Below, piece by piece: positions 4,218 to 54,252 of a DNA stretch of 64,000 bases. Position 1 is the stretch's first letter. Each line of letters opens with the position of its first letter. Source of the stretch: Deltaproteobacteria bacterium (GTDB taxonomy: Bacteria; SAR324; JACQKK01); NCBI GenBank assembly GCA_029858505.1, contig JAOUEW010000001.1, positions 744,001-808,000 of the forward strand, read 5' to 3'. The notes under the pieces were generated by a model. It saw nothing but the letters and a program-made list of their open reading frames with translations. It was not told the origin of the DNA and made no database searches. The position numbers and the translations under genes are program-made.

Positions 4218-4235
4218 TCTGTTTGGCAAGCAAAG

Positions 4236-4281: not shown

Positions 4282-4458
4282 CGCGGTTTCCCATCTGGAG
4301 ATTTTCCCCGGTTCTTTTCTGGCCCTTTCTTGGTTTCTTTCTGGCTGAAAATGCGATTAGAATGGGTCCATACCAACGGATGGGAAGGCAATCCTGCCTC
4401 CATCCGAAAGGTTAGAAGTTGTTTTCCGGTATGGACCTATTTGCCAAGGAGGTGCCCC

Positions 4459-4779: not shown

Positions 4780-4848
4780 GGCCGCCCAGGCAGCGGAATT
4801 CTTCCCGGTTCCGCTGTGTTTATCCACCACAAAAAACAGGAGACCTTC

Positions 4849-5172: not shown

Positions 5173-5178
5173 AAGCGC

Positions 5179-5212
5179 ACCACGGGGCCTAGGCCCCGTG
5201 GTTTCTTTCCAG
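5179..5212 (+). terminator. Terminator after cytochrome copy 3
   Basis: Positions 5179-5202 form a perfect 24-nt palindrome (ACCACGGGGCC / GGCCCCGTGGT) followed by TTTCTTT, 6 bp after the stop codon of cytochrome copy 3. Confidence 0.8.
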
Positions 5213-5263
5213 GTCATTTTCTTCCTTCAAGATCATCCCTGCGTTGAAGGATTTGACGCCCCC

Positions 5264-6245: not shown

Positions 6246-6251
6246 GGGGGC

Positions 6252-7502: not shown

Positions 7503-7586
7503 GAAATATTCTGGAAAGGGTCAGGGATTTGTTTTAGGTGAGATGATCATACACCATCCCATGGGCAGACAACACGGACCAAACGC

Positions 7587-7611
7587 AAAAACCCCCACCG
7601 GGGTGGGGGCT
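7587..7611 (-). terminator. Terminator of fliN
   Basis: Read on the minus strand, a CCCCCACC/GGTGGGGG hairpin (7592-7609) is followed by TTTTTG. It lies about 60 bp after the fliN stop. Confidence 0.7.
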
Positions 7612-7668
7612 GGGCAAACTCTTTTGTATGGCCGAATGGCAGAAATTTGTGCTGCCGGATGGCAAAAA

Positions 7669-8070
7669 TTATTGCCCGGTGGTGATGGGGCCCGATTCGT
7701 CGGGCCGGGTCACCTCGGAAATACGCACCCCGTAGCGTTCGTTCACCACCACCACCTCGCCCCGGGCCATCAACCGGCCAGAGATGGTGATATCCATGGG
7801 TTCGCCCACTACTTTGTTGAATTCCACCACTTTGTTGGGGTGCAGGGTCAGAATTTCACGCACCGACAACTCGGTTTGGCCAATCTCCACGCTCAGTTTC
7901 AGCGGGACATCCTGAAGAAATTCAATCTTATGGTAGGGAATGTTGCTGTCGTCTTCCTCTCCCCGGGCGGCGGCCAGGGGGTTGCTGGCCTGCTTGTTCG
8001 ACAGAACCGTATACAGTTCTTCGTCTTCCCCTTGGGGCAGGTTTTCGGTAGCGGCGGTTTTCTCGGCCAT
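7669..8070 (-). CDS. fliN: Flagellar motor switch protein FliN
   Basis: C-ring component that sets flagellar rotation direction and binds phospho-CheY indirectly. The C-terminal SpoA domain is clear: LQDVPLKLSVEIGQTELSV, then VVEFNKVVGEPMDI, then GRLMARGEVVVVNERYGVRI. The N-terminal 45 residues are acidic and low-complexity, as usual. GGAG lies just upstream of the ATG. It stands alone with no other flagellar gene beside it; its own terminator follows. With the MCP at 60-62 kb it indicates a motile organism. Confidence 0.9.
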   Translation of the reverse strand: MAEKTAATENLPQGEDEELYTVLSNKQASNPLAAARGEEDDSNIPYHKIEFLQDVPLKLSVEIGQTELSVREILTLHPNKVVEFNKVVGEPMDITISGRLMARGEVVVVNERYGVRISEVTRPDESGPITTGQ

Positions 8071-8270
8071 GGGGGGTCTCCGGTGGTGCGAACAATGGGT
8101 TAAGCGCTCGTTGATTCAATCTCCCCTATATGCTATCAAAACCCGTACCAAAGGGGAATCTTGCCCCCCTCCCCATTTGGTAGAAATTCCCGTAGGATAA
8201 TGCCAATCCCCTTTCGGCGTGTGGGGCTGTTCCCCGCCGCTCATCTCTCACTCTTCCGGCCTCGAATTCA

Positions 8271-8969
8271 ATGAATCTGGCAACGAAACCCGAGAAGAAG
8301 GGCCCCCGGGTGTATAGCCTGGAAATGACCGGGTGGACCCTGGTGCTGTTTGTGGGGCTGAGTCTGGCCACCGGGGCGGCGTTGTTTTACACCGGTCTGG
8401 TGACGGGCATGGGTCTTCGCACCCCGGGAACGGTGCCCCCGGTTACCGTTCGAGACGCCCAATCGCCTCCCTCAGGTACGTCGGCGGAAGATTTCTTCAA
8501 ATCGTTGGATGCCAAAAAACCAGCTGTAGAGCCGGTCTCGCCTTCTCCCCTGCACGAGGTCAGCCGGGAGTTGCCGGTGGAAGTGGTGCCCCCGGCGGGC
8601 GATACCCCCCCTGCGGCCAACCCTCCGGCCCCAACCCAGCCCACCGTTCAGTCTCCAGCGCAGTCTTCAGCCCACACCCCAGCGGCCGCCGAGAAGCCCC
8701 CGGCCAAACCCACAGCCCGGCCGGCTTCTCCCACCGAGCCCTACACGGTGCAGGTGTTCACCTCCAGCCATCAGAAGAACGCCCAAGACATTGTCTCCCG
8801 GCTGGTGAAAAGCGGCTTTCCGGCCTATGTGTCTCAGGGGCAAGACGGCAAGGCGGTGATCTACCGGGTGCGGGTGGGCCGCAACCTGAGCCGAGCGGAA
8901 GCGGAGAAGCTGAAAGACCGGTTGATCAAAGAGGGGAAAATGAAAGACCCCACCCTGGTGAAACTGTAA
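8271..8969 (+). CDS. SPOR-domain membrane protein
   Basis: A single transmembrane helix (about residues 24-43, WTLVLFVGLSLATGAALFY) anchors the protein, with a Pro/Ala-rich periplasmic linker of about 100 residues and a C-terminal SPOR domain (YTVQVFTSS, then YRVRVGRNLSRAEAEKL). SPOR domains bind denuded glycan strands at the division septum, so a FtsN/DedD-like role is likely. 15 bp separate it from the DUF1330 gene downstream. Confidence 0.88.
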   Translation: MNLATKPEKKGPRVYSLEMTGWTLVLFVGLSLATGAALFYTGLVTGMGLRTPGTVPPVTVRDAQSPPSGTSAEDFFKSLDAKKPAVEPVSPSPLHEVSRELPVEVVPPAGDTPPAANPPAPTQPTVQSPAQSSAHTPAAAEKPPAKPTARPASPTEPYTVQVFTSSHQKNAQDIVSRLVKSGFPAYVSQGQDGKAVIYRVRVGRNLSRAEAEKLKDRLIKEGKMKDPTLVKL

Positions 8970-8984
8970 ACCCGGAGCCACGAC

Positions 8985-9287
8985 ATGCCCAAGGGATATT
9001 GGATGGTTCGGGTGGATGTCCGCGATCAGGAGCAATACAAAGCCTATGTGGCGGCCAATGGGGAACCGATCAAAAAATATGGGGGAAAAATTTTGGCGCG
9101 CGGCGGACGGTTTGAAACCCCCGAGGGGGAAAGCCGTTCCCGCCATGGGGTGATCGAATTTCCCTCCTATCAGGCAGCGTTAGACTGCTGGAGCTCCCCC
9201 GAATACCAGCAGGCCAGGTCCCTGCGAACGCCCATCTCCACCCTGGATATGGTGATCATCGAGGGGTATGACGGCCCCCAGCCGTAA
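8985..9287 (+). CDS. DUF1330 family small protein
   Basis: A 100-residue dimeric alpha/beta-barrel-type protein. GYWMVRVDVRDQEQYKAY, then ILARGG, then IEFPSYQAALDCWSSPEY are the family hallmarks. The function of DUF1330 proteins is not established. It probably shares a transcript with the SPOR gene 15 bp upstream. Confidence 0.88.
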   Translation: MPKGYWMVRVDVRDQEQYKAYVAANGEPIKKYGGKILARGGRFETPEGESRSRHGVIEFPSYQAALDCWSSPEYQQARSLRTPISTLDMVIIEGYDGPQP

Positions 9288-9321
9288 ACCACGCCCAGGG
9301 CGCTTGCCCTTCCGTGCTCCA

Positions 9322-9622
9322 CAACAAAGCACCCCTCCCCTGCCCGCTTTGCGGGCATCCCCTCCCCTTCGTGGAGGGGAAATAAATCGAATCCGAAAAA
9401 TGATGCACTTGCTTCCGTTCAGTCTTCACCCACCGAACGGATTTTATTTCCCACCCCTCGGCCTAAGCCGTATTGTCCCTCCACGATGGGGAGGGGCAAA
9501 CGCCCGAAGGGCGTTGGGGAGGGGTGCTGTTGGGAAATAACTCGCAGCCGAAAAGTGATCTGCTTACTTCCTTCCTGTTTCATTTATCGAACGGTTGAAC
9601 AGAATCACCAATGGCTTCGAGT
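9322..9622. repeat. Dispersed inverted-repeat element, copy A
   Basis: Two arms of about 55 bp in opposite orientation (9329-9383 and 9474-9527), each ending in GCACCCCTCCCC or its complement and each carrying an internal GC-rich mini-hairpin, flank a spacer of about 90 bp. A tail (9541-9622) continues with a segment related to TGCTTACTTCCTTCCTG and ends near GGCTTCGAGTAT. Related sequence occurs at 26383-26600, 55603-55770 and 30570-30635. No coding capacity is seen, so a non-autonomous MITE/REP-like family is inferred. Confidence 0.65.
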
Positions 9623-9680
9623 ATAGGGTGGGGGTGTTTCAGAACGGGATCTACGGCAGTGCGTGTGTGGCCTTGCCCTA

Positions 9681-9726
9681 AAACAACCAAGCCGGGCCTG
9701 ATACAGGCCCGGCTTGGTTGTTTCTG
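9681..9726. terminator. 20-bp perfect hairpin, bidirectional terminator
   Basis: Positions 9681-9700 and 9704-9723 are perfectly complementary around a 3-nt ATA loop, with A-rich and T-rich ends so that it can terminate either strand. It sits about 90 bp beyond the 3' end of the minus-strand recombinase gene and is probably its terminator. Confidence 0.8.
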
Positions 9727-9811
9727 GGGGGAATGGCGTTGTGTTGTTTATGTTGGGGTGTTGCTTCCAGCGGAATTCCCAACCATGCTGCTTTCCAGCC
9801 ATGCCGCGGGA

Positions 9812-10525
9812 TTAGCCGTTGGCCACTTTTCCCATGCGCTCCAAAATCGGGCCGTACAGTTCGCTTTGGTACACGGTTTTCACCGTTTCAGCGTACCAGA
9901 TGCCGCCCCGCTTGGAGTTTATTTTCCGGTCGTTCAGCAACTTGGCCACCTTGTGGTAACTCATCCCCGAGTCCCGCTTTTCGCGGATCAACTTCACCAC
10001 GTCCAGTTCGCCTTTCACTTCCACCAGTTTTTTGTTCTGGTAGGTAAAGCCGAAGGGGGCATGGCCCACCCGCTCGCCCCGCTCTCGCTTTTGGGCGATG
10101 ATTTCACGGGTGCGGTCGGAAATGCGTTTGTTGTCCCACTTGGTGATAATGCCGATGATGTTGAGGGCCAGCCGTCCGCTTTCCTCAAACGTATTCAGAC
10201 CTTCCTCGATGGACACCAGCCCGATGTTGTTCTTGATGCAAATGGTGGAAATGATGGTGTTCAGGTGACGGATGTTGCGGGTCAGCCGGTCCAGCCGGGC
10301 AATCACCAGCACGTCGAATTCTTTGCGCTGGGCGGCCTTCAGAATTTCCTCCAGCTTGGGGTACTCCAAATCGTTGCTGGTGGTTTTCCGTTCCAAAAAC
10401 ATTCCGCTCAGGGTCCAACCGCGCTCTTTTACGTAATCGGCGATCAGTTGGTCTTGGTCATCCAAGTTTAAATTGTTGGGTGTGGGGCCTAAGGTGCTTA
10501 GGCCTGCGTATCCGATAGCTTTCAC
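9812..10525 (-). CDS. Serine recombinase (resolvase family), catalytic Arg substituted
   Basis: Small serine recombinase: resolvase N-terminal domain (about 1-150) followed by the start of a Recombinase domain (PFGFTY, then SGMSYHKVAKLLNDRKI). The catalytic-helix motif LDRLTRNIRHL is intact. The usual Y-x-RVS around the nucleophile is YAGLS here, so the conserved Arg two residues before the Ser is Gly and a short Pro/Asn-rich stretch follows. Start is GTG with AGGGGGC upstream. Length 237 aa lacks the long C-terminal coiled coil of phage integrases. No partner transposon gene or attachment site is visible. It may be domesticated or degenerate. Confidence 0.85.
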   Translation of the reverse strand: MKAIGYAGLSTLGPTPNNLNLDDQDQLIADYVKERGWTLSGMFLERKTTSNDLEYPKLEEILKAAQRKEFDVLVIARLDRLTRNIRHLNTIISTICIKNNIGLVSIEEGLNTFEESGRLALNIIGIITKWDNKRISDRTREIIAQKRERGERVGHAPFGFTYQNKKLVEVKGELDVVKLIREKRDSGMSYHKVAKLLNDRKINSKRGGIWYAETVKTVYQSELYGPILERMGKVANG

Positions 10526-10554
10526 GGTAGCCCCCTAAGGGTAGTGAAGGGTTT

Positions 10555-10607
10555 CCCGAACCGGCTCTCAAAACTCCGTTATGGTTTACGGAGTTTCTCG
10601 GCTCGGG
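10555..10607 (-). promoter_or_regulatory. Folded leader before the recombinase gene
   Basis: The outer arms CCCGA/TCGGG (10555-10559, 10603-10607) enclose a perfect 9-bp inner stem, AAACTCCGT/ACGGAGTTT (10571-10579, 10588-10596), with an 8-nt loop. It ends about 30 bp upstream of the recombinase GTG start. It could be a structured mRNA leader, an operator, or a recombinase site. Confidence 0.4.
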
Positions 10608-10927
10608 GGTGGGTTAAGAATTCGCCCGTACTCCTACAATTCCAACAATCAATCAGGTTCTCCCATGCGACTAACAGCACTATATCATGAAAGGGTGCAT
10701 TTATGGAAGCCTTTTTTTTGTTTGTCATAAAACCAATGCACCTAGCCTAGGATTAACGTTTTCAGCAGGCAATGTCCACCCACGAAAAACAGGATGGTTA
10801 CAAAAATAAATTCGATAACAACGGGATGGAATAAATATTCTTACTTGAAAGAGAGCATAAAAGAGAAACAGATAGGGCGGCTGTAAGGGTGGCGGGATGC
10901 TGAAAGGCGGAAAACATGCGTTGAAAT

Positions 10928-10966
10928 AAAATATCCCCCGGCGGACAGTGCCCCGGGGGATATTTG
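10928..10966 (-). terminator. Terminator of the exported-protein operon
   Basis: ATATCCCCCGG (10931-10941) pairs with CCGGGGGATAT (10953-10963). On the minus strand it is followed by TTTTATTTC. It lies about 90 bp beyond the stop of the 11052-12524 gene. Confidence 0.75.
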
Positions 10967-11051
10967 GAGATTGGATATTTATGAGGGCCTTGCCCCCACG
11001 TCTAAGACCTAAATATCTAAGACCTAAGACCGAAGCATATTTTTATGGAGC

Positions 11052-12524
11052 TTACTTTTTCAGCCATTCAATCAGTTGATCGGCATCGGCCCGCAGGTAC
11101 GGGTCTTTCGACAACTTCCGGGCGGTTTCTAACAAGCCCGTCAACTCGGCCTTGTTGATGTCTCCTTTGCCGTTCAGAATGCGGCGCACCTCGGAAACAA
11201 TGAGGGGCGGCAGCCGGGCTTCGATATCCGATCGCGCCTGGAAGGCCTCGGAAAAGTCGCGGTCGCTGACCCCGTTGGCGGCGGCCAGGGTAAACTGCTC
11301 CATGGCTTCTTGATACAACCGGGTGGTATGGGCAATGTCTTTGGACTCTCTGGCCTGGGTGGCCAGTTGGCGGCCTTTCTGGAAGGCTTCTCGGTATTGG
11401 GCCACCCGGGCCAATTCATCTTGGCTCAACTGCAAGCCGCCCGCTTCGGCTTGACGGCGGCGCAACTCGGCTTCTACCCGTTCCGTTTTGTTCAACACCC
11501 CAAGGTCAGTCACCTTAAAGAAGGTCACCAAAACCGAGGAACCGTGAACCTCCACCGTGGGGGGAATGCTCAACACGTCCGGGGTGAGGTAGGCTTGCAG
11601 ATACATCCGGTCGGGAGTGTTTTGCCGGGAAATCATTTGAATCCGGTGCAGATACTCCAGATCTTTGATGGTTCCGAGGCGCCCGCCGTTCACCGCGTTG
11701 GGCACAATGACCTCGATGGTAAAGTTCCCCTTGGCCTTTTTCCCGCCGGGCTGCTCGTACAATTGAAACGGAAAGTGGGATGGGGTGAAGTTGACTGAGC
11801 GGTTAAACACCATTTCGATCCCGAACCGGCTGACGCCGGAGGAATCGGTGTCCGACAGGCCGTGGGCTTTGATTTCTTGCAGCACATAGGGCTGCACTTC
11901 CTGCTCGGAGAGGTCGGTGGTAAGGGCAGATTCCTCCAACACCCGGTAAGCGTCTAGGTTAGACAGCAGGTCCCGCCGGCCGTTGGTCATTTCGACCACA
12001 TATCGGATGGGATACCCGAAGGCGTCCCGGGCGGTCACCCCTTCCACCTCGGCCAGATTGAAGGTGTGAATGGCAAAAGGAATTTTTTGCCCCACCAGGG
12101 GGTCGGGGTCCTGATAGGTTTTTACGTATACTTTGGCCGCCAGCCCGCTGCGAATGAACCGGGCGCGGTCCAACACCAAAAACCGGCCGGCATTGGGTGA
12201 AGGAAACAAGAGAATGTTGTTTCCCCGCAGGCGCACCCGTTCATCACGGGCATATTGCTGCAATTTGTCCAGGGTCCAGTCTTCCGATGTGTTGTTGTCC
12301 AGCACCACCCGCAGGTAGTGGCCGTTCACCCCGGCGTCTTGAATGAAGGTCGAGGTGATCAGATTCCCGTTGTACATGCCTTTGTCCAGCGCCTCGGCCA
12401 GTTTCATGGCCGTCTCGCGGTCGGTGTATTTGGGGGTGGCCCACAAACCAGGCGCGCCCAGCGCCAGCCCAAAGCACACGGCCAGGGAGAGAAAAAACCG
12501 GGAATGGAGCAATGGATGGATCAT
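11052..12524 (-). CDS. Exported protein, unknown function
   Basis: I do not recognise a family. A signal peptide (FFLSLAVCFGLALGAPGLWA) is clear. The 490-residue protein is mixed alpha/beta, with a helical Gln/Arg/Glu-rich stretch near 360-440 that looks like TPR or coiled coil (RRRQAEAGGLQLSQDEL) and a helical C-terminus. Its ATG overlaps the stop of the upstream gene by 4 bp, so the two proteins are probably made together and act together in the envelope. Confidence 0.75.
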   Translation of the reverse strand: MIHPLLHSRFFLSLAVCFGLALGAPGLWATPKYTDRETAMKLAEALDKGMYNGNLITSTFIQDAGVNGHYLRVVLDNNTSEDWTLDKLQQYARDERVRLRGNNILLFPSPNAGRFLVLDRARFIRSGLAAKVYVKTYQDPDPLVGQKIPFAIHTFNLAEVEGVTARDAFGYPIRYVVEMTNGRRDLLSNLDAYRVLEESALTTDLSEQEVQPYVLQEIKAHGLSDTDSSGVSRFGIEMVFNRSVNFTPSHFPFQLYEQPGGKKAKGNFTIEVIVPNAVNGGRLGTIKDLEYLHRIQMISRQNTPDRMYLQAYLTPDVLSIPPTVEVHGSSVLVTFFKVTDLGVLNKTERVEAELRRRQAEAGGLQLSQDELARVAQYREAFQKGRQLATQARESKDIAHTTRLYQEAMEQFTLAAANGVSDRDFSEAFQARSDIEARLPPLIVSEVRRILNGKGDINKAELTGLLETARKLSKDPYLRADADQLIEWLKK

Positions 12525-13516
12525 AGATTTCCGGGGGAAAGTGATCGGTTGTCGGATCGTACGCGGATTTCCACGTCGTTGTCACCGGGAAGGGTATCGC
12601 CGGGGGCGAGAAGGCGCACCACCGGGGCTCCTTCCATGGCCTGGGCCAGGGCCAGGGCGGCGGGCAAATAGGCTGGCCGGTAGATGACCTGGGTGCCACC
12701 GGCCAGGGATTCTCCGGGGTCTCCGGGTCGTTCTTGCCGGGTTAGGGTGAACACCATGCCCGTGCGGGATTCGGTGCCTCCCAACTGTTGGGTCAGCGCC
12801 GCCATCAGGGTATCGGCCGCCTTAGCGTCTTCCGCATAGGCGGTCACGGCTACTCTCACATGCACCACGCGGCCTTCGGTAAAGATCAAGGCCCCCATGG
12901 TCATGTCATCCAGGGCTTTTTCAGAATACTGGGGCTTGGGCGGCGGTGGCGGTTCCTGGCTTACCGGAGCTGGCGGAGGTGGGGCTTCCCCCACCCGGAA
13001 CACCAAACGATCCGACCCGCTGGAGGAAGAGAGAAACTCTGGTTTCTCTGGCCCCAGGCCTACAATTTCGATGTTGACCCAGGATGGCACGGTTTGGCCC
13101 TTATCACCCAGATCCGAGATAACCTCTACCCGCAGGGGTTTCCCGTTCAGATCCAATTCTAGCGGAGGCCCAAACACAGCCCCAATCACCGCCAGGGGAA
13201 TTCGGACGCGGTGGCGGAAAGCGGGGTTTCCTTGGTCATCGCTGGTTTCGTCCGACTCAACGCTCATTTTGTTTTGCCAGTCGGCTCGGAACTGCCCCTG
13301 CACCTGCAGCACCATGTTTTGGCCTTCTTGGGTAACCGAAACCTGATCGACCAACTGGCGATGCAGGGTTGGCTGCCCGGTTTCGGCGGTGCCTTGAGAG
13401 GCCCCCACGGCTAATGTAAATACGACAGCCAACCCGGCGGCCAGACCCCACCCCCCCCGGAACCCGAAACGGTTTTCCCGGCGAAGTAACTGATCATATA
13501 TAGAATAATTCCGCAT
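12521..13516 (-). CDS. Exported/anchored protein, unknown function
   Basis: An N-terminal basic segment followed by a hydrophobic helix (about residues 23-40) gives either a signal anchor or a long signal peptide. A beta-rich region follows, then a proline-rich linker (APPPPAPVSQEPPPPPKP). The last 100 residues (beginning near TMGALIFTEGR) form an alpha/beta region whose end, ALALAQAMEG then DVEIRVRSD, resembles the LytR C-terminal fold; that match is weak. It is the first gene of a two-gene operon with the exported protein downstream. Confidence 0.72.
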   Translation of the reverse strand: MRNYSIYDQLLRRENRFGFRGGWGLAAGLAVVFTLAVGASQGTAETGQPTLHRQLVDQVSVTQEGQNMVLQVQGQFRADWQNKMSVESDETSDDQGNPAFRHRVRIPLAVIGAVFGPPLELDLNGKPLRVEVISDLGDKGQTVPSWVNIEIVGLGPEKPEFLSSSSGSDRLVFRVGEAPPPPAPVSQEPPPPPKPQYSEKALDDMTMGALIFTEGRVVHVRVAVTAYAEDAKAADTLMAALTQQLGGTESRTGMVFTLTRQERPGDPGESLAGGTQVIYRPAYLPAALALAQAMEGAPVVRLLAPGDTLPGDNDVEIRVRSDNRSLSPGNL

Positions 13517-13978
13517 TCGTCCTGGCTTCCTGGGGTGTTTCAGCCTGTATCGCCCGCCTGTTGTGCCATCCCTAAAGGGGGTGCTCTCCCGGAATGGCTT
13601 CTGCAGACAGAGGAATTTTCACAAAATGAAATGCATTCCTCAAGCCAGGGGCATAAAAAACGTTGACTTTTTCATCTCATCCCCTTTATTTCTAACATAA
13701 ACCGTTGGAAAAGCGGTTTGAAAATAAATTGAAAGTAAATGAGAATAAAGCGTTGAGAAACCCGAACCAGAAAAATTAGACCCCTCGGGCATTCCCATCG
13801 CGCAGAGACGACAAGCAATTAGGGAAGACAAGTAAAAGGGACGAGAAGGAATCGAGAAGGAATCGAGAAAGAAAGTTGTACCCATCGAACCGGGAAGACA
13901 TGGGCCAGGATGGCCCTAACGTTCAATCCCCCCTTTCACCCCCTGGGTGGAACGGGAGTGCCAGGAAGGCCACCGGTC
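13517..13978. other. Gene-free divergent region with short tandem repeat
   Basis: This 462-bp region separates a minus-strand exported-protein gene from the plus-strand zinc-ribbon gene, so promoters for both should lie here. Near its right end CGAGAAGGAAT is repeated almost three times (13842-13874). A short minus-strand reading frame at 13640-13885 looks like chance: it is A+T-rich and has no recognisable features. Confidence 0.5.
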
Positions 13979-15598
13979 ATGATTATTCAATGCACCGCTT
14001 GCGAGACGAAATACCGGCTGAACCTGAGCAAGGTTCCCGCCGGGCGTGCGTTCGTCAAATGCCGTAAATGCGGTACCCCCGTTTACATCTCTGGCCAAGC
14101 CGAACCCCAAGAGCAAATTCCTCCCGTTCTTCCCCCCGACCCAGGGTGGGATGGCGGTGGTTCTGCCGCGGCAGAGGCCCCCTCTGGTTACTCAGAACCC
14201 CCCGGCAGCAAACACCCAGTGACCTGCCCCCGTTGCGGCAGCCGTTACCGCGTGGCCGGAGAAATTTTGGCCAACCCCAAAACCCAACTGAAATGCACCC
14301 GCTGCGATCACCTGTTCCGCCCTGGGCTGGAGGGTGTGGCCGGAACGGGCCGGGTGATTCCCCCAGGGGTTCCCCAGGGAATGCCCTCCATGCCGGGGGG
14401 GGGAGACATGCCCCTGCCGGATGAATCCAGACTGAACGTGATGTTTGATGACCTGCGGGAGGACCAACCCCCCCCCATGGCCAATCGACCCCGTGCCGCC
14501 CAACCGGCGGCCGCCGCGAAGCCGGCCAAATCTTCCAAGCCCACGTCACCCAGATTCGAGCCCGGCGGGGACCTCAACCCCGAATCGGCCTACCTGGAAG
14601 CGATTTCTCTGGGGGGAGAGGAACCCGCTCCCGAGGGTTACTCCTCTGGGCTGGCCCCGGTGCCAGACAGCCAGAAGTACAAATTTTTCCTCAAGCCCGG
14701 CACGCCTCCCCCCGCTGCCGGGGGCAAGGCCGAGCGGCCCTTTGCCGAGCATTTCGCCGCGGCCCAGGCGGCCCAGCCTGCGCCAACCCGCACGCCTCAA
14801 GACCGGCCAGGGCCGAACTGGGAGACCCTGGCGTCTCAGTCCTCTCCCTCTCACGAAACTGAAGGGTTAGATGACCCCGACCATCACGGCTGGGATGATG
14901 CCGAACTGCCCCACCCCGAACATTTTGCCGGGCTGTCGGGCCAGGTCTCCAGTCACACCCGCCCTGGCCAAGGGGCCCCTGGGGGTTCGCCCCAGGCCTC
15001 CCAGGTTTCTCCCGAGGCTGCGGTCGCGGCCCTCACCGGTTCAGCGCCCCGTGTGGTACGCCAACCCCTGTGGCCGGTGTGGTTGGCCGCCGTGGTGCTG
15101 CTCACCGGTGGGCTGGGCTGGGGGGCCAAAATGTATCTGGCGCCCCCCCTGCCCCACCCCCAACTGATGGTGGGCGGGGGAGAATTGCCCTTGCAGTTTA
15201 CGGGCGAACCCCGCCAGCACTTGGTGAAAAACAGTGAAACCGGGCGAAACCTGCTGGTCCTCTCCGGCGATCTGCGCCTGCAGGCCGCCAGCAAAAAACC
15301 GGTGGGCTGGGTAGAGGTGCGGGTGATCGCTCTGCGCGACGGGCTGGTGGTGGGGGAAGGCCGGGCCTACGCGGGCAATGTTTTACCCGATGAAGACATT
15401 AAGCGGTTTACCCTGCGGGCCATTCGGGCCAGCGCTGGCTACCGCAACGGCCAGCGCGACATCAACGTGAGCATCCCCCCCGGGGGCAGCATTCCTTATC
15501 AAGTGATTCTCGACGGCATTACCACCCCGGTGGACAGGGTGGAAACCCAGGTGTTGGGTTACCTGCAAGACGGACGGCAGGTCTACCCCAACCCCTGA
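13979..15598 (+). CDS. Double zinc-ribbon (MJ0042-type) membrane protein with DUF3426-like C-terminus
   Basis: Starts with a zinc ribbon (CTACETKYR, then CRKCGTPV), followed about 50 residues later by a second one (CPRCGSRYR, then CTRCDHLF). A long Pro/Ala-rich low-complexity region of about 250 residues follows, then one transmembrane helix (PVWLAAVVLLTGGLGWGAKM) and a beta-rich C-terminal domain. The layout is cytoplasmic zinc ribbons, linker, and periplasmic DUF3426-like domain. The ATG at 13979 gives the usual N-terminus; an upstream in-frame ATG at 13910 has no ribosome-binding site. Function unknown, perhaps envelope sensing. Confidence 0.8.
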   Translation: MIIQCTACETKYRLNLSKVPAGRAFVKCRKCGTPVYISGQAEPQEQIPPVLPPDPGWDGGGSAAAEAPSGYSEPPGSKHPVTCPRCGSRYRVAGEILANPKTQLKCTRCDHLFRPGLEGVAGTGRVIPPGVPQGMPSMPGGGDMPLPDESRLNVMFDDLREDQPPPMANRPRAAQPAAAAKPAKSSKPTSPRFEPGGDLNPESAYLEAISLGGEEPAPEGYSSGLAPVPDSQKYKFFLKPGTPPPAAGGKAERPFAEHFAAAQAAQPAPTRTPQDRPGPNWETLASQSSPSHETEGLDDPDHHGWDDAELPHPEHFAGLSGQVSSHTRPGQGAPGGSPQASQVSPEAAVAALTGSAPRVVRQPLWPVWLAAVVLLTGGLGWGAKMYLAPPLPHPQLMVGGGELPLQFTGEPRQHLVKNSETGRNLLVLSGDLRLQAASKKPVGWVEVRVIALRDGLVVGEGRAYAGNVLPDEDIKRFTLRAIRASAGYRNGQRDINVSIPPGGSIPYQVILDGITTPVDRVETQVLGYLQDGRQVYPNP

Positions 15599-15662
15599 TC
15601 AACCGTTCCATCCGCCACCACCCCCTCCCCCCTTCATTGTTCTCCCCTCCGCCGGTCCTCTC

Positions 15663-15700
15663 CCCAAAGTGGGGCGAGGACCGGTCCCCGCCCGGTTCTC
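15663..15700. repeat. Strong GC-rich hairpin upstream of dnaG
   Basis: CCGGTCCTC and GAGGACCGG flank an inner CCCC/GGGG pairing. There is no T tract, so it is not an obvious terminator. It may be a fragment of the same G+C-rich intergenic repeat family as at 9.3 kb. Confidence 0.4.
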
Positions 15701-15814
15701 CGCTCCGTTTTGCCGGGCTGGGGTGGTTTGGGGTAAAGTGAGAACAGCCCGGTGGTTTCGGTGCGTTCTCTCTTCTCCATTTCTTTGTTTCCTTTCCCAC
15801 TCTCCCAACGTGCC

Positions 15815-17569
15815 ATGGGCGCATCCGGCGACATCATTCAACAGGTCAAAGAGCGCGCCGACATCGTCCGGGTGATCGGCGAACGGGTGCACCTCACCGC
15901 CGCCGGGCGGAACTGGAAGGGGCTGTGCCCCTTCCATCAAGAGAAAACCCCCTCGTTTCAGGTGAACCCAGAGCGGCGGATGTTTCACTGCTTTGGCTGC
16001 GGCAAGGGGGGCAGCGTGATTGATTTCGTGATGGAAGTGGAACGGATTCCCTTTGCCGAGGCCCTGGCCAAGCTGGCGTCTGGGCTTGGGCTCTCCATGG
16101 ACCGCGACAAACCCGCCCGCGGCGGCGAGCGGGACCGCCTGGGGTTGGAGCAAGCCCGGGCGTTTTACCACGGGCGGCTGTTGGAGCACCCCGAGGGAGA
16201 AACCGCCCGCCGGTATTTATATCAACGGGGGTTTGAAGAACCCGCCTGGAAAACGTTTCAATTGGGGTTTGCCCCAGAGGGCTGGCAAAGCATCACCGAC
16301 CGGCTGCTGAACGAGGGGTTTTCTCCAGAGGAGGCCCTGGCCACAGGCCTGGTGAAGCGCAGCCCCACCGGGCGGCTGTATGACCTGATGAGAAACCGGA
16401 TCACCTTTCCCATTCAAGATGAGTCTGGGCGGACCCTTTCGTTTGGGGGGCGGCTGCTGGAAGGCGAGGAGGGCCCCAAGTATTTAAACACCCCAGAGAC
16501 AAGGCTGTATCACAAGTCGAAAGTGTTGTATGGCTTGGCCCAGGCCCGGGACACCTTACGCAAAAGCGGGCGGGCCATTTTGGTGGAGGGATACCTGGAT
16601 GTGGTGCGCTGCCACCTGGCGGGGTTTACCCAGGCCGTGGCCACCTGCGGCACGGCCTTGACCCCCCAGCATTTGGACCTGTTGGAGCGGTTCGCGCAGA
16701 AAGTGGTGCTGGTGTTCGACGGCGACCAAGCGGGCATCAAGGCCTCGCTGGCTTCGGCCCCGTTGTTTTTTAACCGAGGCGTGGAGGGGGCGGTGGTGAC
16801 CCTGCCAGACGGCCTGGACCCGGATGACTTTATTCGGCAGCGGGGGCCGGAGGCCTTTCAAGAACAATTGGAGCGGGCCACCCCCCTGCTGGAATACTTG
16901 GTGTTTCAAACCTTGGAACGTCAGGGGCGGTCTCCCCAGGGGCGGGAGCGGGCCCTGCGGGAGTTGTCTCCCCTGCTGGAAGGAATTCAGCGGGAAACCG
17001 TGCGCGACATGACCATTCGCCACTTGGCCGACCTGGTGGGGGTGCGGCCAGAGGCCATCCGCATTCAAAGCCCCCAGGCCCCAGCAGTGCAGGCCGGGCA
17101 GGCCCCGACCGAGGTGGTGTGGCCCGCCGCCCAGCGCCGCCAGCGGATGTTTTTGGGGCTGGTGTTCAAGCACCGCACCCTGCTGGCCCGGGCCAGGGAA
17201 ATTCTGGCGCCGGATGAGTTGACCGATCCTCCCTTGGCGGCACTGTATGCCAAGCTGCTGCGGTTGACCGACCAAGAGTTTGCCTCTGTTCCGCCGGAGG
17301 AACTGGCCGAGGTGTTCCCCGAGGTGGGGGAGCCGATGCGTTCGCTGCTGCTGGATGCCCCCCTGCAAACCAGGGTGGGGGTGGTGAAGGAACCCTTGGC
17401 CGAACTGGACCACTTGGCGGCGGCCATGAAAGAAGGCCGCAAGACCGACCTGCTGCGGAAAGTGAAAGAGGCGGTGGGGGAGGAAGAGAAAATCCAATGG
17501 ACCCGTGAACTTCAGGCGGTGCGCCGGGAACTGTCGGCCCTGAAGGCTTCTCGCAAAGGATATGGGTAA
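15815..17569 (+). CDS. dnaG: DNA primase
   Basis: Makes RNA primers at the replication fork. The zinc domain is at residues about 35-75 (CPFHQEKTPSF, then FHCFGCGKGG), then the RNA polymerase domain and the TOPRIM core (EGYLDVVRCH and VLVFDGDQAG). The C-terminal helical DnaB-binding region is present. Length (584 aa) is normal. The ATG at 15815 gives MGASGDIIQQ, the family start. It has no Shine-Dalgarno; instead the 50 nt upstream are pyrimidine-rich. No rpoD is adjacent. Confidence 0.95.
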   Translation: MGASGDIIQQVKERADIVRVIGERVHLTAAGRNWKGLCPFHQEKTPSFQVNPERRMFHCFGCGKGGSVIDFVMEVERIPFAEALAKLASGLGLSMDRDKPARGGERDRLGLEQARAFYHGRLLEHPEGETARRYLYQRGFEEPAWKTFQLGFAPEGWQSITDRLLNEGFSPEEALATGLVKRSPTGRLYDLMRNRITFPIQDESGRTLSFGGRLLEGEEGPKYLNTPETRLYHKSKVLYGLAQARDTLRKSGRAILVEGYLDVVRCHLAGFTQAVATCGTALTPQHLDLLERFAQKVVLVFDGDQAGIKASLASAPLFFNRGVEGAVVTLPDGLDPDDFIRQRGPEAFQEQLERATPLLEYLVFQTLERQGRSPQGRERALRELSPLLEGIQRETVRDMTIRHLADLVGVRPEAIRIQSPQAPAVQAGQAPTEVVWPAAQRRQRMFLGLVFKHRTLLARAREILAPDELTDPPLAALYAKLLRLTDQEFASVPPEELAEVFPEVGEPMRSLLLDAPLQTRVGVVKEPLAELDHLAAAMKEGRKTDLLRKVKEAVGEEEKIQWTRELQAVRRELSALKASRKGYG

Positions 17570-17606
17570 AAAAAATCCCCTGACCAGTGGAACCGGTCAG
17601 GGGATG
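17568..17606 (-). terminator. Terminator of the FecR gene
   Basis: ATCCCCTGACC (17575-17585) pairs with GGTCAGGGGAT (17595-17605). On the minus strand it runs into eight T residues overlapping the dnaG stop region. It lies about 33 bp beyond the FecR stop. Confidence 0.82.
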
Positions 17607-17638
17607 CTAGGAGACGATCAATCCCCAGTTGCCAGGGG

Positions 17639-18655
17639 TTATTTGGGCATTTTCTTGGGTTCCCCCGAGTTGGCGTCAATCCGCAGGCGGGACTTGTCGC
17701 CTGGGGTTTTGAAGCGGAACATCACCACCCCTTCCCCAATGTCGGTGTCGTCCTCGCGGTCCATCACGGCCCACACGTAAATGGTTCCCTTCAGGTCTTC
17801 ATGGGCGGCCTCTGGGGTGCCAAACCGCACGGCCACCCGCGCAAACCCTTGCTCGTTCAGCACCACCTGACCGGGGAAGGACGCCCGGTCGTAGTTGCTG
17901 CGCAAATACACCGGGCCGGAGCGCGTGACGTTGGTGCCGGATTTCACGTTGACCAATTGAATGACCACGAAGGCTTCTTCGGCATTGCCTTGGGCAAAAT
18001 CCAGGTCGCGCTTCTCCGATTTCACGTCGAGCTTGAAGGGAATGGGCTCTACCTTAGAGGACAGCCGGTCGTTGGCGGCAACACCCTTTACCTGATTGCC
18101 GGGTTTCAGGGTCACGGAATCTCGGCCGTTTTTCACCTCGACTTCGCCTTCGGTCAGGGCCACCGAGGTTTTCTCGTCGCGCTCCACAACCCGCAGGGTG
18201 GTGCCTTTTACCCCAATGGTGGCGGTGCGGGTGCGAATGGAAGCGGGGTTTTTCTGGCGGACCATGGTGCCCCAGATGGACCCGGCCTGCACCGACAGGT
18301 CATATTTAAAGCCCCGGCCATCGCCCGCTTCTTTCACCTGCTCTACCTTAAATTGAGAATTGGGGAACAGGCGGAATTCAGAACCGTCGCGGAATTTTAA
18401 TGTGGCTTGGCTTTCTTTGGAGGTGATGATGGTGTCTCCGTTCCGAAGCAGCAGGCCGTCGCGGCCGGAGATCACCTTTTTGTCATCTCCCTTGATGATC
18501 TTTACGCTGCCTTGGATGCGGTCCAGGGTGGCCACGATATCTCCCTTGGGCTCTTCGGCCAGGGCGGCAGCGGGCATCCACAGGTGCGTACTGGCCGCCA
18601 GCAGCAGGGCCAACAACAGGGGGCGAAACATACGGTGGGCTTGAACGGGGATCAT
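17639..18655 (-). CDS. FecR-domain exported protein
   Basis: Signal peptide ending near AAALA, then a FecR domain: VKIIKGDDKK, LLLRNGDTIIT, ATLKFRDGSEFRLFPNS, then TRTATIGVKGTTLRV. A C-terminal half of about 150 residues is beta-rich and has no family I recognise. FecR proteins of this secreted type occur outside iron-siderophore systems and their role is unclear. There is no sigma factor or TonB receptor nearby, so iron regulation is unlikely. GAGGTAA lies 3 nt before the chosen ATG. Confidence 0.85.
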   Translation of the reverse strand: MIPVQAHRMFRPLLLALLLAASTHLWMPAAALAEEPKGDIVATLDRIQGSVKIIKGDDKKVISGRDGLLLRNGDTIITSKESQATLKFRDGSEFRLFPNSQFKVEQVKEAGDGRGFKYDLSVQAGSIWGTMVRQKNPASIRTRTATIGVKGTTLRVVERDEKTSVALTEGEVEVKNGRDSVTLKPGNQVKGVAANDRLSSKVEPIPFKLDVKSEKRDLDFAQGNAEEAFVVIQLVNVKSGTNVTRSGPVYLRSNYDRASFPGQVVLNEQGFARVAVRFGTPEAAHEDLKGTIYVWAVMDREDDTDIGEGVVMFRFKTPGDKSRLRIDANSGEPKKMPK

Positions 18656-19296
18656 GGTTACCTCATCGGGGTTGGAGGATTCCGGAGTGGAATCGTCTCG
18701 TGGTTTTCGAATATGTATATTTTACAGGAAAATACCAATGTGCGTTGTTTAAACCAGATTTCCTGCGATCCATCCTTTGCCATCCTACTTACCCTAAATA
18801 CGTTTACATCAAATGACTCAATTTACCCAAATATCTTTACCCAAATATCTACCCCCAAAATATTCCCTACCAAAAATCCCCACAGATTTCCCCCCGCCCT
18901 GTTTTCCTCTCTCTTGATCCCTCGGCGGTGTTATGGTTTTACAGGATTGCCTTTGGGTCAAGAGCCAATGAGCCAAGGGTCGGTGAACCAAAGATAAGGC
19001 TGCAAGGAAGGTGCCCCTTTTCATTAAAAATAAAACGATAAATAATCAGATACTTTCATGGATGGTACTCTGCGACTACACGTCCGTGTGGTGAGATTTC
19101 TCCAGGGGTGTGGTGAAATTTCCATAGGTTCCGCAGGGGAAAAAAGCGGGAAAAAAATAAAAAAAAATAAAAAAGCGGTGGAGACCACAGGGTTTGACTG
19201 GTGTTTTGTTCTTTGAATCATGTATGATAACACTTTGGGTTTAATTTGGATACCCATGCCCATTTGATATCCACTTTTTTAGGGAAGATAAATCCT
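18656..19296. other. 641-bp intergenic region upstream of metK
   Basis: No gene seen; it is clearly A+T-rich. TTACCCAAATATCT occurs twice in tandem (18823-18836, 18837-18850). Nearer metK are two related 15-mers 22 bp apart (see 19086-19122). I looked for SAM-I and SAM-II riboswitch motifs and did not find them. A minus-strand frame at 19024-19263 is probably chance. Confidence 0.5.
19086..19122 (+). promoter_or_regulatory. Tandem operator-like repeat upstream of metK
   Basis: GTGTGGTGAGATTTC (19086-19100) and GTGTGGTGAAATTTC (19108-19122) match at 14 of 15 positions and start 22 bp apart, two turns of the helix, which suits a DNA-binding regulator. Position is about 175-210 bp before the metK ATG. 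Regulator unknown. Confidence 0.4.
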
Positions 19297-20460
19297 ATGC
19301 AGGAATCCGTGTTTACCTCGGAAAGCGTGACCGAGGGCCATCCTGATAAGATGTGCGATCAAATTTCTGATGCCGTGCTGGACGCGATTTTGGAACAAGA
19401 CCCCACGGCCCGCGTGGCCTGCGAAACCCTGACCACCACCGGGCTGGTGGTGATTGCCGGAGAAATTACCACCAACGCCGTGATTGACTTCCAAGATGTC
19501 GCCCGGAAAACCATCATGAGCATTGGTTACGACAACAGCGAACTGGGTTTTGATTACCGCACCTGCGGGGTGCTGACCTCCATCGGCAAACAATCTCCCG
19601 ACATTGCCATGGGCGTGGATGAAGGCTCTGGAACTTATAAAGAGCAGGGCGCCGGCGACCAAGGCTTGATGTTCGGCTTTGCCGTGCGGGAAACCGAGAC
19701 TCTGATGCCCCTGCCCATTCACCTGTCTCACCGCATGGCCGAGCGCATGTCTCAGCTGCGCCACTCGGGCGAGCTTTCTTACCTGGGCCCAGACGGCAAG
19801 ACCCAGGTGTCGGTGCGCTACAAGGGTGACCAGCCCGTGTCGGTGGACACGGTGGTGGTGTCTTCTCAGCACTTGGCCGACGCCGACCCCCACCGGCTGG
19901 AAAAAGAAATCATCGAAAAAGTCGTTCGTCCGGTGATTCCCGCCCACCTGCTCAACAACAAAACCCGCTTCTTGATCAACCCCACCGGGCGGTTTGTGGT
20001 GGGCGGTCCCCACGGTGATGCCGGTTTGACCGGCCGTAAAATCATTGTGGATACCTACGGCGGCATGGGCCGCCATGGTGGCGGGGCGTTTTCGGGCAAG
20101 GATCCCACCAAAGTGGACCGCTCGGCGGCTTACATGGGCCGCTACATCGCCAAAAACATCGTGGCCGCCGGTTTGGCCGACCGCTGCGAAGTGCAACTGG
20201 CCTATGCCATCGGCTTCCCCGAACCCGTCTCGGTAAAGGTCGATACCTTTGGCACGGGCAAGGTGGATGAAGAAAAACTCTCCGCCCTGGTGCGGGAATA
20301 CTTTCAACTGAAGCCCGCCGGTATTTTGAAAGAGCTGAACCTACGCCGCCCCATCTACCGCAAAACGGCGGCCTATGGCCACTTTGGGCGGGAGCTGCCC
20401 GAGTTCACCTGGGAAAAAACCGACAAGGCCGATGCCCTGAGGAAAGCCGCCGGAAAATAA
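19297..20460 (+). CDS. metK: S-adenosylmethionine synthetase
   Basis: Converts methionine and ATP to SAM. The family start [29 protein letters not shown] (the conserved ATP-binding hexapeptide region) and [19 protein letters not shown] (the P-loop-like motif) are all present. Length 387 aa is standard. I started at the ATG at 19297, 10 nt after AGGGAAG. It heads a metK-ptsH-aroE run with a 64-bp gap to ptsH. Confidence 0.96.
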
Positions 20461-28554: not shown

Positions 28555-28743
28555 GTGGCTTTACCTCATTTGATGTCCCCGTTGAGAATTCGGACGGATT
28601 GGTGTTGCATACGATATTCGCACGAAGTTGATCCAGTTAGGTTTAGATCCTAAGACGATTTGGGTGTCATAGCCTGTTCAGAACAGAGAAAAAAAACAAA
28701 TGTGTCAAAAACACTAGGAATTCACTTTATTTGTTAGGGGAAT

Positions 28744-30204
28744 ATGAACGATGTTGGCGAGAAAATGGTTTGCTCTGATTGCATCGGAAATGAACTCCTA
28801 AAGGAAGAGGTACAAACCGAGGGTACAAAAGGAAGTTGCTCGTACTGTGGGAAAAAAAAGAAAGGCATTCTTATTAGTGACCTTGCGGAAAAGGTAGAAT
28901 CCGTAATTGATGATTTCTTTCAATTAACCGATGAAGACCCAACAGGCGATGAGTTTATACGGGAGATGAACGGTTATATGTGGGAGCGTTCGGGAGAAGA
29001 GGTAAATTTGGTGATTCAAGAAATAGCCGAGATTGAGGAAGAGATTGCGGAAGATGTTCGGGACTATCTAGAACTAAAAAATTGTGATCGCAGGGATGCA
29101 AGAGATGGGATAGAAAACCCGTTTAGTGCATCTGCCCACTACGAACATGTTGGTCCTGACACCTGGTATTTTAAAGAAACTTGGTCTTCTTTTAAGAGGC
29201 ATATACGCACAGAGGCTCGTTATTTTAGCCGAAAGGCGGAATATGCCTTGCGTCATATATTTTATAATCTAACAAACCTTGTTTCGGTTACTGGGGAAAA
29301 ACCCGTTCGTGTGATTGAACCTGGTGAAAAAGGAAGCCAAATATATAGGGCGAGGATGGCGGAATCAGATCACATGCTTAAAACAATACTGTCTGACCCA
29401 ACTAGGGAACTTGGCCCACCTCCATCAAGAAAAGCTCGTAGCGGTAGGATGAATGCATCAGGCATCTCTGTATTTTACGGTGGAATGAATGCTGAGACTT
29501 GTATAGCAGAGATTAGACCCCCTGTTGGGAGCCAAGTCGTAGTTGGGAAGTTTGAAATTATCAAGCCTATTCACATACTTAACTTTAAAGTATTGGAGGA
29601 AATCTTTGTGCATTGGAACTATTTTGATCCTGACTTAAAGATGAAATGGGGAAGTGCGGTATTTTTTGAGGAATTAGTAAAAGAACTCACTAGGCCAATA
29701 ATGCCGTCTGACGAGGAGTTTGAGTACCTACCCACACAAGTTGTGGCTGAATTTTTAGCACAATATGTTAATCCCAAATTGGACGGTATGATATTTCGAT
29801 CATCACAAACAAATAACGAGGGTGAAAATGTTGTTCTTTTTCAACACGCCTCTATAGTCGAACAATATATCCTGCCACCCGGTTGTAAGGTTTCTATTGA
29901 TATGGGTCAAGTATATGAGGATGAAGTTGATGATTCAATTTCGATTTATGAGGCTGAAGCGGAGAAAACTAATGAAGAAACACCTTCTGCGGAGGAGGAT
30001 TCAAATCCACTTAAGTATTTAGTAAACTTAACGGAGTTAAATACATTAAGGTTGAGGGGGTTGGAAGATCAAAGTCCGCTATTGCCACCAACCCTAAGGT
30101 TGGATGTGAAGGGCATAGAGGTTTTTAGAATCACTGCGGCGAAATACACCACTGAAAATCGCTCAGTACAACGTATTCGTTTTTCAAGAAAAAAATACAC
30201 ATGA
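28744..30204 (+). CDS. Zinc-ribbon + RES-domain protein (HEPN/RES-type N-terminus)
   Basis: The N-terminus carries a zinc ribbon (Cys10, Cys13, Cys32, Cys35). An acidic helical region of about 130 residues follows, of the kind found before RES domains (HEPN/RES N-terminal domain). Residues about 197-385 match the RES fold: YRAR (Arg202), GRMNASG (Arg235), Tyr245, Glu256 in IAEIRP, and Ser353/354 near IFRSSQ, then ENVVLF. RES domains degrade NAD+ in toxin-antitoxin systems. The gene is strikingly A+T-rich against its neighbours, which points to transfer. No Xre/ParS-type antitoxin is adjacent. TAGGGG lies before the ATG. Confidence 0.82.
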   Translation: MNDVGEKMVCSDCIGNELLKEEVQTEGTKGSCSYCGKKKKGILISDLAEKVESVIDDFFQLTDEDPTGDEFIREMNGYMWERSGEEVNLVIQEIAEIEEEIAEDVRDYLELKNCDRRDARDGIENPFSASAHYEHVGPDTWYFKETWSSFKRHIRTEARYFSRKAEYALRHIFYNLTNLVSVTGEKPVRVIEPGEKGSQIYRARMAESDHMLKTILSDPTRELGPPPSRKARSGRMNASGISVFYGGMNAETCIAEIRPPVGSQVVVGKFEIIKPIHILNFKVLEEIFVHWNYFDPDLKMKWGSAVFFEELVKELTRPIMPSDEEFEYLPTQVVAEFLAQYVNPKLDGMIFRSSQTNNEGENVVLFQHASIVEQYILPPGCKVSIDMGQVYEDEVDDSISIYEAEAEKTNEETPSAEEDSNPLKYLVNLTELNTLRLRGLEDQSPLLPPTLRLDVKGIEVFRITAAKYTTENRSVQRIRFSRKKYT

Positions 30205-30386
30205 TTAACTTAGACGAACATTTTTTGTTTTTTAAAATGAGGGTAATTTTGTTCAAAGTATCTTCATTTTTCGCACGTCATCATACAATCATGTCCTTTG
30301 TTCAAAACAATCAGCGGGCAATTTGGCGAGGAATATTTTTTTGCAAAGGTGGGCCAATTTGCCCCACGGTGTTTCAATGCGAGTAG
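30201..30386 (+). CDS. Possible small ORF coupled to the RES gene
   Basis: A 61-codon reading frame overlaps the RES stop by 4 bp (ATGA) and ends in a TAG that lies at the edge of the chimeric tRNA. It is A+T-rich, Phe-rich at its start, and matches no family I know. It may be a real coupled gene cut short by the rearrangement, or chance. I give it low weight. Confidence 0.25.
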   Translation: MINLDEHFLFFKMRVILFKVSSFFARHHTIMSFVQNNQRAIWRGIFFCKGGPICPTVFQCE

Positions 30387-30457
30387 CGGGGGCAGGATTT
30401 GAACCCGCGACCCTCAGTTTGGAAAACTGATGCTCTAGCCAGCTGAGCTATTCCCGC
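30385..30457 (-). pseudogene. Chimeric tRNA: tRNA-Gly(UCC) body with tRNA-fMet 3' end
   Basis: The first 62 nt (acceptor 5' strand, D-arm, anticodon arm with TCC, variable loop, T-arm 5' strand) match the intact tRNA-Gly at 31263-31336. The last part, from the T-loop outward, matches the 3' end of tRNA-fMet at 31161-31234, including bases beyond the gene. The joint lies in the shared GGATTTGAACC. The gene is one base shorter (73 nt) and its 5' GCGGGAA cannot pair properly with the fMet CCCCGCT strand: with a one-base shift only about five pairs form. It probably does not make a charged glycine tRNA. Confidence 0.75.
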
Positions 30458-30576
30458 GGATGCCCTAAGAACTCCGGGTTCCCGCAAGATTCAGTTGATC
30501 CAAGCCAGATCAACAGAACAGAACCCCTGGAATTCCTTCATTTTTCTCATCTCTCTACACTGCAGGATGGAATGCG
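30395..30576 (-). repeat. 182-bp direct repeat, copy 1
   Basis: Nearly identical to 31274-31455 (five mismatches by eye over 182 bp). It contains most of the tRNA-Gly sequence plus 119 bp of its 5' flank, so the chimeric copy has inherited the upstream region and could be transcribed. Confidence 0.9.
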
Positions 30577-30635
30577 CTTGCTTCCTTCCTGCTTCACCAA
30601 CCGAACGGATGATTCAATGAACCGGTGGCTTTGAG
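30570..30635. repeat. Partial copy of the dispersed repeat tail
   Basis: ATGCGCTTGCTTCCTTCCTG and the following CACCAACCGAACGG match the tail of the inverted-repeat elements at 9.3, 26.4 and 55.6 kb. The second copy of the 182-bp repeat stops exactly at ATGCG, where this tail begins, so the repeat tail may mark a recombination boundary. Confidence 0.5.
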
Positions 30636-31099
30636 AGTCTGGACAGGCGGCGCAGCAGCCAAGCGTACCCCGCCCCCAGCAGTGCCCCGGCCAGCAGGTT
30701 CCACCACATCAGCAGCGAAACCCCCCAGAAAAGCACTAATTCCACCGGAAGTTTGACCCATGCGGCCCACCAGCTTTCATCTGGGGGGATGTTTCCCTTT
30801 ACGGTGACCCAGATCAGGATTTGAAAGATGAACAGCCCATGGGCCAGCACCGCACCCAGGGTTCCAGCCAGTGCCCCCTTGAGCAGGGAAGCCGGGCTCC
30901 CGGCTCCCCGCTCCATGATTTTCCGCCAAGCCAGGGTTGGCCCGCCCCAGCAAGCCAGCGCTGCCATCTCTGCCTGAATGAGTCCTGCTAGGCCCTCAGG
31001 CCAAGGGCCCGCCTGCCACCACACCAGGGCGAATCCCGGTGCCAGGCACACCAGCCCAAACCCCGCCGACCGCCGCCATTTGATGGGTTTTTCGTTCAT
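30614..31099 (-). CDS. Predicted membrane protein, unknown function
   Basis: 161 residues with four hydrophobic segments (about 10-30, 33-55, 70-100, 117-150) and a C-terminus rich in Arg. No recognised family. It lies between the chimeric tRNA and tRNA-fMet, inside the rearranged segment, and its last codons overlap a dispersed repeat tail, so the C-terminus may be altered. It is G+C-rich like the rest of the chromosome, not like the RES gene. Confidence 0.6.
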   Translation of the reverse strand: MNEKPIKWRRSAGFGLVCLAPGFALVWWQAGPWPEGLAGLIQAEMAALACWGGPTLAWRKIMERGAGSPASLLKGALAGTLGAVLAHGLFIFQILIWVTVKGNIPPDESWWAAWVKLPVELVLFWGVSLLMWWNLLAGALLGAGYAWLLRRLSRLSKPPVH

Positions 31100-31160
31100 G
31101 TGTATTCACGAGAGCAAAAAAAAAGCCGATCACGGATTTCGTGAGCGGCTGGTGTGGGAG

Positions 31161-31234
31161 TAGCGGGGGCAGGATTTGAACCTGCGGCCTTTGGGTTATG
31201 AGCCCAACGAGCTACCGGACTGCTCTACCCCGCG
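31161..31234 (-). tRNA. Initiator tRNA-fMet (CAU)
   Basis: A 74-nt cloverleaf. CAT anticodon in CTCATAA, with the three G:C pairs (GGG/CCC) next to the loop that mark initiators. The first base C is opposite a T at position 72, an unpaired end as in other initiator tRNAs. CCA is not encoded. Its 3' 25 bp with flank recur at the chimeric tRNA (30381-30405). Confidence 0.93.
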
Positions 31235-31262
31235 ATCAAGGATGGGAGGAAGGAGAAGGGAG

Positions 31263-31336
31263 AGCGGGAAACGGGATTTGAACCCGCGACCCTCAGTTTG
31301 GAAAACTGATGCTCTAGCCAGCTGAGCTATTCCCGC
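31263..31336 (-). tRNA. tRNA-Gly (UCC)
   Basis: Complete 74-nt cloverleaf: acceptor GCGGGAA/TTCCCGC with discriminator T, D-arm GCTC/GAGC, anticodon stem TCAGT/ACTGA with loop TTTCCAA, T-arm GCGGG-TTCAAAT-CCCGT (one wobble pair at the end). CCA not encoded. It is the intact partner of the chimera at 30385-30457 and is 26 bp upstream of tRNA-fMet on the same strand. Confidence 0.95.
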
Positions 31337-31455
31337 GGATGCCCTAAGAACTCCGGGTTCCCGCAAGATTCAGCAGATCCAAGCCAGATCAACCGAACAG
31401 AACCCCTGGAATTCCTTCATTTTTCCCATCTCTCTACACTGCCGGATGGAATGCG
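31274..31455 (-). repeat. 182-bp direct repeat, copy 2
   Basis: Copy associated with the intact tRNA-Gly; offset to copy 1 is 879 bp. It ends 26 bp before the SDR gene stop, so the duplicated flank is the intergenic region upstream of tRNA-Gly. Confidence 0.9.
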
Positions 31456-54126: not shown

Positions 54127-54252
54127 TCGGCTCCTTTCCAAGGGGAGGCCGGAAGGTTTCCCCGCCGGCCCTGTCGTTCCCGCGTCCGTGGCGGTTGGGG
54201 CGTTAGGCCCGCGGGAATCGGAGAGAATGAGACTATTCGTTTAGGTTTTGCG

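Follow-up and report, generated by a model that had tools for sequence, protein, structure and literature searches.

Partial tRNA genes arise by integration and are widespread at the edges of genomic islands, where they are often annotated as real tRNAs (PMC9897764). A well-described case of integration within a tRNA gene is mycobacteriophage Ms6, which integrates in the T loops of tRNA-Ala with the crossover in the T loop, and for which identity was required across the entire 26-bp core (PMC1762012). For bacterial tRNA genes described as chimeric or hybrid, our literature search found only the case of Rickettsia peacockii, where a 'chimeric tRNA gene' lies at an island (tra-cluster) junction (PMC2791219). 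Partial and chimeric tRNA genes at island edges are thus already known, and the in-register fusion of a tRNA-Gly to an initiator tRNA that we describe here, in a SAR324 bacterium, is a new case.

Like the partial tRNA genes (att remnants) that flank integrated elements, the fusion repeats the 3' portion of a tRNA at the edge of foreign DNA and is called by software as a tRNA gene, but it differs in that another tRNA supplies the body to which the remnant is joined in register and in that the adjoining islet lacks the partner repeat at its far end (PMC9897764). R. peacockii likewise has a chimeric tRNA gene where horizontally acquired DNA begins, but both the locus and the cargo are different, and the published text consulted describes neither a fold nor the parental origins of its parts (PMC2791219). 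The 25-bp block that forms the 3' end of the chimera occupies the same tRNA sub-location as the Ms6 core, which begins in the T arm and extends as far as the 3' end of the tRNA; unlike in the Ms6 system, no integrase is present and tRNA-Gly shares just 11 bp of the block (PMC1762012). The features of the locus are as follows, with all positions referring to the window, that is, the whole stretch of 64,000 nucleotides that we analysed.

28560..30380 (right edge approximate), no strand: foreign AT-rich islet, delimited by GC change-points and abutting the chimera on its 3' side
28744..30204, plus strand: gene for a 486-aa RES-domain protein, the sole gene of the islet (RES domain, HEPN/RES-NTD1, N-terminal CxxC..CxxC pair)
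30381..30405, minus strand: 25-nt initiator tRNA (fMet) 3' end with flank, identical (25/25) to 31158-31182
30385..30457, minus strand: chimeric tRNA with the body and anticodon of tRNA-Gly(UCC) and the 3' end of fMet (ARAGORN, Rfam tRNA model, alignment, fold)
30395..30405, minus strand: T-arm stretch common to Gly and fMet, GGATTTGAACC, the 11-bp overlap of both matching blocks
30458..30576, minus strand: duplicated tRNA-Gly upstream region (119 nt with 5 mismatches, all beyond the first 37 nt)
30572..30661, plus strand: copy of a dispersed intergenic repeat at the duplication breakpoint (about 59 matches in the genome)
30614..31099, minus strand: 161-aa ORF, probably a membrane protein, between both Gly copies and absent from the other 9 family genomes
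31130..31144, minus strand: native terminator hairpin 3' of fMet, similar in relatives and missing 3' of the chimera
31160..31234, minus strand: intact initiator tRNA-Met(CAU) (ARAGORN, Rfam, fold)
31262..31336, minus strand: intact tRNA-Gly(UCC) (ARAGORN, Rfam, fold), in a Gly-fMet pair conserved in the order

ARAGORN predicted a Gly(UCC) tRNA at 30383-30458, a Met(CAU) tRNA at 31160-31234 and a second Gly(UCC) tRNA at 31262-31336; these three are its only calls in the window, and all lie on the minus strand. The Rfam tRNA model (RF00005; cut-off 29 bits) placed the first of these at 30385-30457, where the preliminary description had located a chimeric tRNA, with 52.0 bits compared to 66.7 bits for fMet and 71.1 bits for the intact tRNA-Gly. 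A Gly-derived block of 182 nt (30395-30576), which covers the 5' flank, body and anticodon of tRNA-Gly(UCC), matched 31274-31455 with 97% identity. All five mismatches (30495, 30496, 30515, 30547 and 30564) lie in the upstream flank, and there are none in the tRNA body or in the first 37 nt upstream of it. The upstream region is therefore retained, as had been proposed, with 5 mismatches over 119 nt. The description also held true at the other end of the gene, where the sequence from the T arm to 3 nt beyond position 73 is that of fMet, flanking bases included (25 of 25 positions identical). With up to three mismatches allowed, this 25-mer was found at only two sites in the 2.79-Mb genome (30381-30405 and 31158-31182) and its backwards control had zero occurrences, which together exclude a chance origin of the identity. 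The join between Gly and fMet falls, in register, within the 11-bp T-arm sequence GGATTTGAACC. The chimera is thus genuine, including its flanking bases. We considered and rejected a viral origin of this fMet 3' end, given that the exact 25-mer occurs in four viral contigs as part of complete tRNA-Met genes rather than of fragments.

Comparison with related genomes showed that the intact Gly-fMet pair is conserved across the family and order, with no third Gly- or Met-like tRNA near the pair in these relatives. The chimeric junction, with up to two mismatches allowed, was absent from 51 relatives in the phylum, and the exact junction pattern was absent from the genome_contigs collection, which possibly does not include the window's own genome. 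In the window the T loop of tRNA-Gly reads TTCAA, as it also does in most fMet genes, whereas it reads TTCGA in the relatives shown, and the 11-bp identity between Gly and fMet is therefore particular to this lineage. The terminator hairpin 3' of the intact fMet resembles those of two relatives (L020 and L030), while no terminator-like site was found downstream of the chimera. The intact tRNA-Gly (31262-31336, minus strand) additionally carries a compensated change in the anticodon stem, from C-G to U-A, compared to the relatives shown.

Several other observations concern the surroundings. The 161-aa ORF had no Pfam, NCBIfam or PADLOC match, and the best matches of the neighbouring 494-aa TldD/PmbA protein are mostly to genomes of the SAR324 cluster, which places the window within SAR324 or very close to it. 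Further along, a Moco (molybdenum cofactor) riboswitch at 54115-54235 (minus strand, 56.4 bits) sits where a moaA-like gene (53101-54141) begins, which is the usual arrangement. Elsewhere in the assembly (G000), contigs C6 and C11 gave matches at identical coordinates (tRNA-Phe and several repeats), suggesting a redundant contig.

When folded, the chimera forms a cloverleaf in which the acceptor stem has five pairs (GCGGG/CCCGC), with AA left unpaired across from a C, and in which all 5 bp of the T stem are formed. There are seven acceptor pairs in the intact tRNA-Gly, so that the acceptor stem of the chimera is short of one nucleotide and two pairs, and the predicted folding energies are -28.5 and -30.9 kcal/mol, respectively. 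No full acceptor stem appeared in the folded model, in agreement with the earlier statement that this stem can no longer pair fully, while most of the cloverleaf survives. Among the 43 tRNA matches over the cut-off genome-wide, the score of the chimera is the lowest of any ordinary-length tRNA, and only two tRNAs, of 82 and 85 nt, score below it. In a functional elongator tRNA-Gly(UCC), an acceptor stem of 7 bp is expected to stack on a T stem of 5 bp, and the chimera lacks this arrangement. Because two pairs and one nucleotide of the 12-bp stack are gone, we infer that the chimera is not a working translational tRNA, and the altered stack in the model makes normal translational use unlikely. 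The D arm, anticodon arm and UCC anticodon are identical to those of the intact tRNA-Gly, and the folded sequence retains G1-C72, C2-G71, U73, C35 and C36, which are determinants for bacterial glycyl-tRNA synthetase. With these determinants in place, the chimera might still be charged with glycine.

Beyond what had been described before, we found that the chimera sits at the edge of a foreign islet, that its junction lies in the 11 bp shared by both T arms and that it has no native terminator. The islet has a GC content of 40% in surroundings of 68%, with change-points at 28560 (from 68% to 40%) and at 30350 (a rise), the latter about 30 bp from the 3' boundary of the chimera; foreign DNA starts 3-4 nt beyond the end of the chimeric tRNA. 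The locus thus shows two properties expected of an att remnant, namely a second tRNA 3' end that runs from the T arm to just beyond position 73 (25/25) and foreign DNA that begins at this 3' end, as seen from the change-point at 30350 and the absence of the RES gene from nearly all relatives (50 of the 51 in the phylum). Plasmids commonly carry relatives of the RES protein, with an identity of about 33%. Its HEPN/RES-NTD1 match scores slightly under the Pfam cut-off, and the architecture of HEPN/RES-NTD1, RES domain and CxxC..CxxC pair has already been described for a RES group (PMC3710099). We dropped a role as a HEPN nuclease, since HEPN/RES-NTD1, an N-terminal domain that HEPN proteins also have, is not itself a HEPN domain (PMC3710099). 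At the left end of the islet there was no matching tRNA-like repeat, with the best local scores being no better than those of shuffled sequence, and no integrase was found in or near the islet, the nearest Phage_integrase match in the genome being 40 kb off.

The phylum has a single other RES homologue, in genome G046, with 27% identity across 370 aligned columns. Its gene has the same convergent layout as in the window, with about 200 bp between its end and the 3' end of a tRNA-Arg(CCU) gene. On the locus L185 (G046:C93:66501-86500), copies of about 50 bp of the tRNA-Arg(CCU) 3' half lie at 3936, 12748, 15901 and 19515, the last of which is the intact tRNA, with degenerate copies at 5068 and 11522; the RES gene sits between the last two full copies. 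The array (3936-19604) comprises at least four such repeats, followed by a conserved stretch of about 200 bp, and the units that they separate carry an SNF2/DpdE-like helicase, a PIF1/RecD-like helicase and the RES gene. No Phage_integrase match was found on this contig. The array looks like the product of elements that accreted one after another at a single tRNA (compare PMC9897764). Both genomes have, among foreign genes, a RES gene that points towards the 3' end of a tRNA, while the G046 repeats, unlike the window, extend to the anticodon loop and include an intact end tRNA and no chimera. Direct comparison of the window islet with the G046 array gave no DNA similarity. Because the G046 RES gene lies in an array of tRNA 3' halves, it is plausible that the RES islet of the window came in at a tRNA target, by analogy with a single case that cannot prove the route of arrival.

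We consider the chimera to be a tRNA pseudogene, a recombination scar formed by duplication and by T-arm crossover or deletion at the boundary of a tRNA-targeted islet, and give this reading a probability of roughly 0.68. Both the AT-rich, RES-bearing DNA past the 3' end of the chimera and the native terminator kept with the intact pair count in its favour, whereas the missing tRNA-like repeat at the left end of the islet and the missing integrase count against it. The route that we infer begins with duplication of tRNA-Gly(UCC) together with about 120 bp upstream, which is directly visible in the sequence, followed by integration of the islet at a tRNA 3' end. With the Gly-fMet unit duplicated, the islet would have entered its second fMet at the 3' end, and the 102-bp stretch from one T arm to the other would later have been lost by slippage or illegitimate recombination. 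Alternatively, an attP carrying an fMet 3' end might have been joined to the Gly T loop through crossover by a recombinase. Deletion is more likely, because Ms6 demanded identity over its full core and Gly and fMet share only 11 bp; against it stands that the second complete fMet it requires is not seen. Either route would leave no working translational tRNA and at most a low-level transcript that is degraded. We disfavour a 777-bp element between the 25-bp repeats (31158-31182 and 30381-30405) with the 161-aa ORF as its cargo, because the terminator of the intact fMet resembles those of relatives, so that this flank looks native, and because the junction lies in register between the T arms.

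A plain duplication of the Gly-fMet unit followed by the 102-bp T-arm deletion, with the adjoining islet a coincidence or a later unrelated event, is a distinctly less probable origin. It would account for the lack of both an att partner and an integrase, and the intact pair does present the 11-bp direct repeats 102 bp apart that such slippage would use. The far breakpoint of the Gly duplication, at 30576, also falls at a dispersed intergenic repeat. Against this origin, the composition changes just where the chimera has its 3' end, this site lacks the native terminator, and the G046 homologue likewise lies at a tRNA 3' end among tRNA repeats. The dispersed repeat, which is possibly a REP-like family of this lineage, is about 65-90 bp long with about 59 matches in the genome, often paired 150-220 bp apart, and has further copies in the window at 9403-9442, 9562-9598 and 55714-55767; some copies contain inverted TCCGTTCGG/CCGAACGGA. 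As an agent of transposition it was rejected since its copies fold weakly, and we note only its position at the breakpoint.

The preliminary description had left open whether the fusion is a dead by-product or an RNA with a new role. The former fits the data, while the latter went unsupported, as no relative keeps the chimera and there are only weak hints of constraint. It is improbable that the chimera is expressed and acts as a decoy, as a source of fragments or as the head of a terminator-less transcript running antisense into the RES gene. Retention of the promoter-proximal sequence makes transcription possible, no terminator-like site follows, the cloverleaf mostly folds, and the chimera still has the outer acceptor pairs, the anticodon and the U73 found in tRNA-Gly. 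The unmutated body and 37 proximal nucleotides, set beside five changes in the distal flank, could likewise hint at constraint. This pattern is nevertheless statistically weak, with a chance probability of 0.12 (body alone) that all five substitutions fall outside the tRNA body, and the chimera is confined to one genome in the comparison with 51 phylum relatives and genome_contigs. With no positive sign of a role, a pseudogene scar is the most economical verdict. Specifically, it is very improbable that the duplicated Gly upstream region drives synthesis of either a stable tRNA-like RNA or a tRNA-headed RNA that continues, antisense, across the RES gene; were this true, a recombination scar would have become the regulator of an acquired toxin-like gene. 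An artefact of this metagenome-type assembly is just as improbable, since the redundancy indicated by C6 and C11 and an estimated contamination of 4% are set against a duplicate that differs at 5 of 119 upstream sites, a contig of 982 kb and a join that has unique sequence on either side.

Read as a recombination scar, the locus provides a clean example of adjacent tRNA genes recombining through a common T-arm sequence, and the chimera is a doubtful tRNA-Gly call that both ARAGORN and Rfam accept. In addition, our results indicate that RES-domain cargo may land at tRNA 3' ends in the genomes of SAR324 bacteria.
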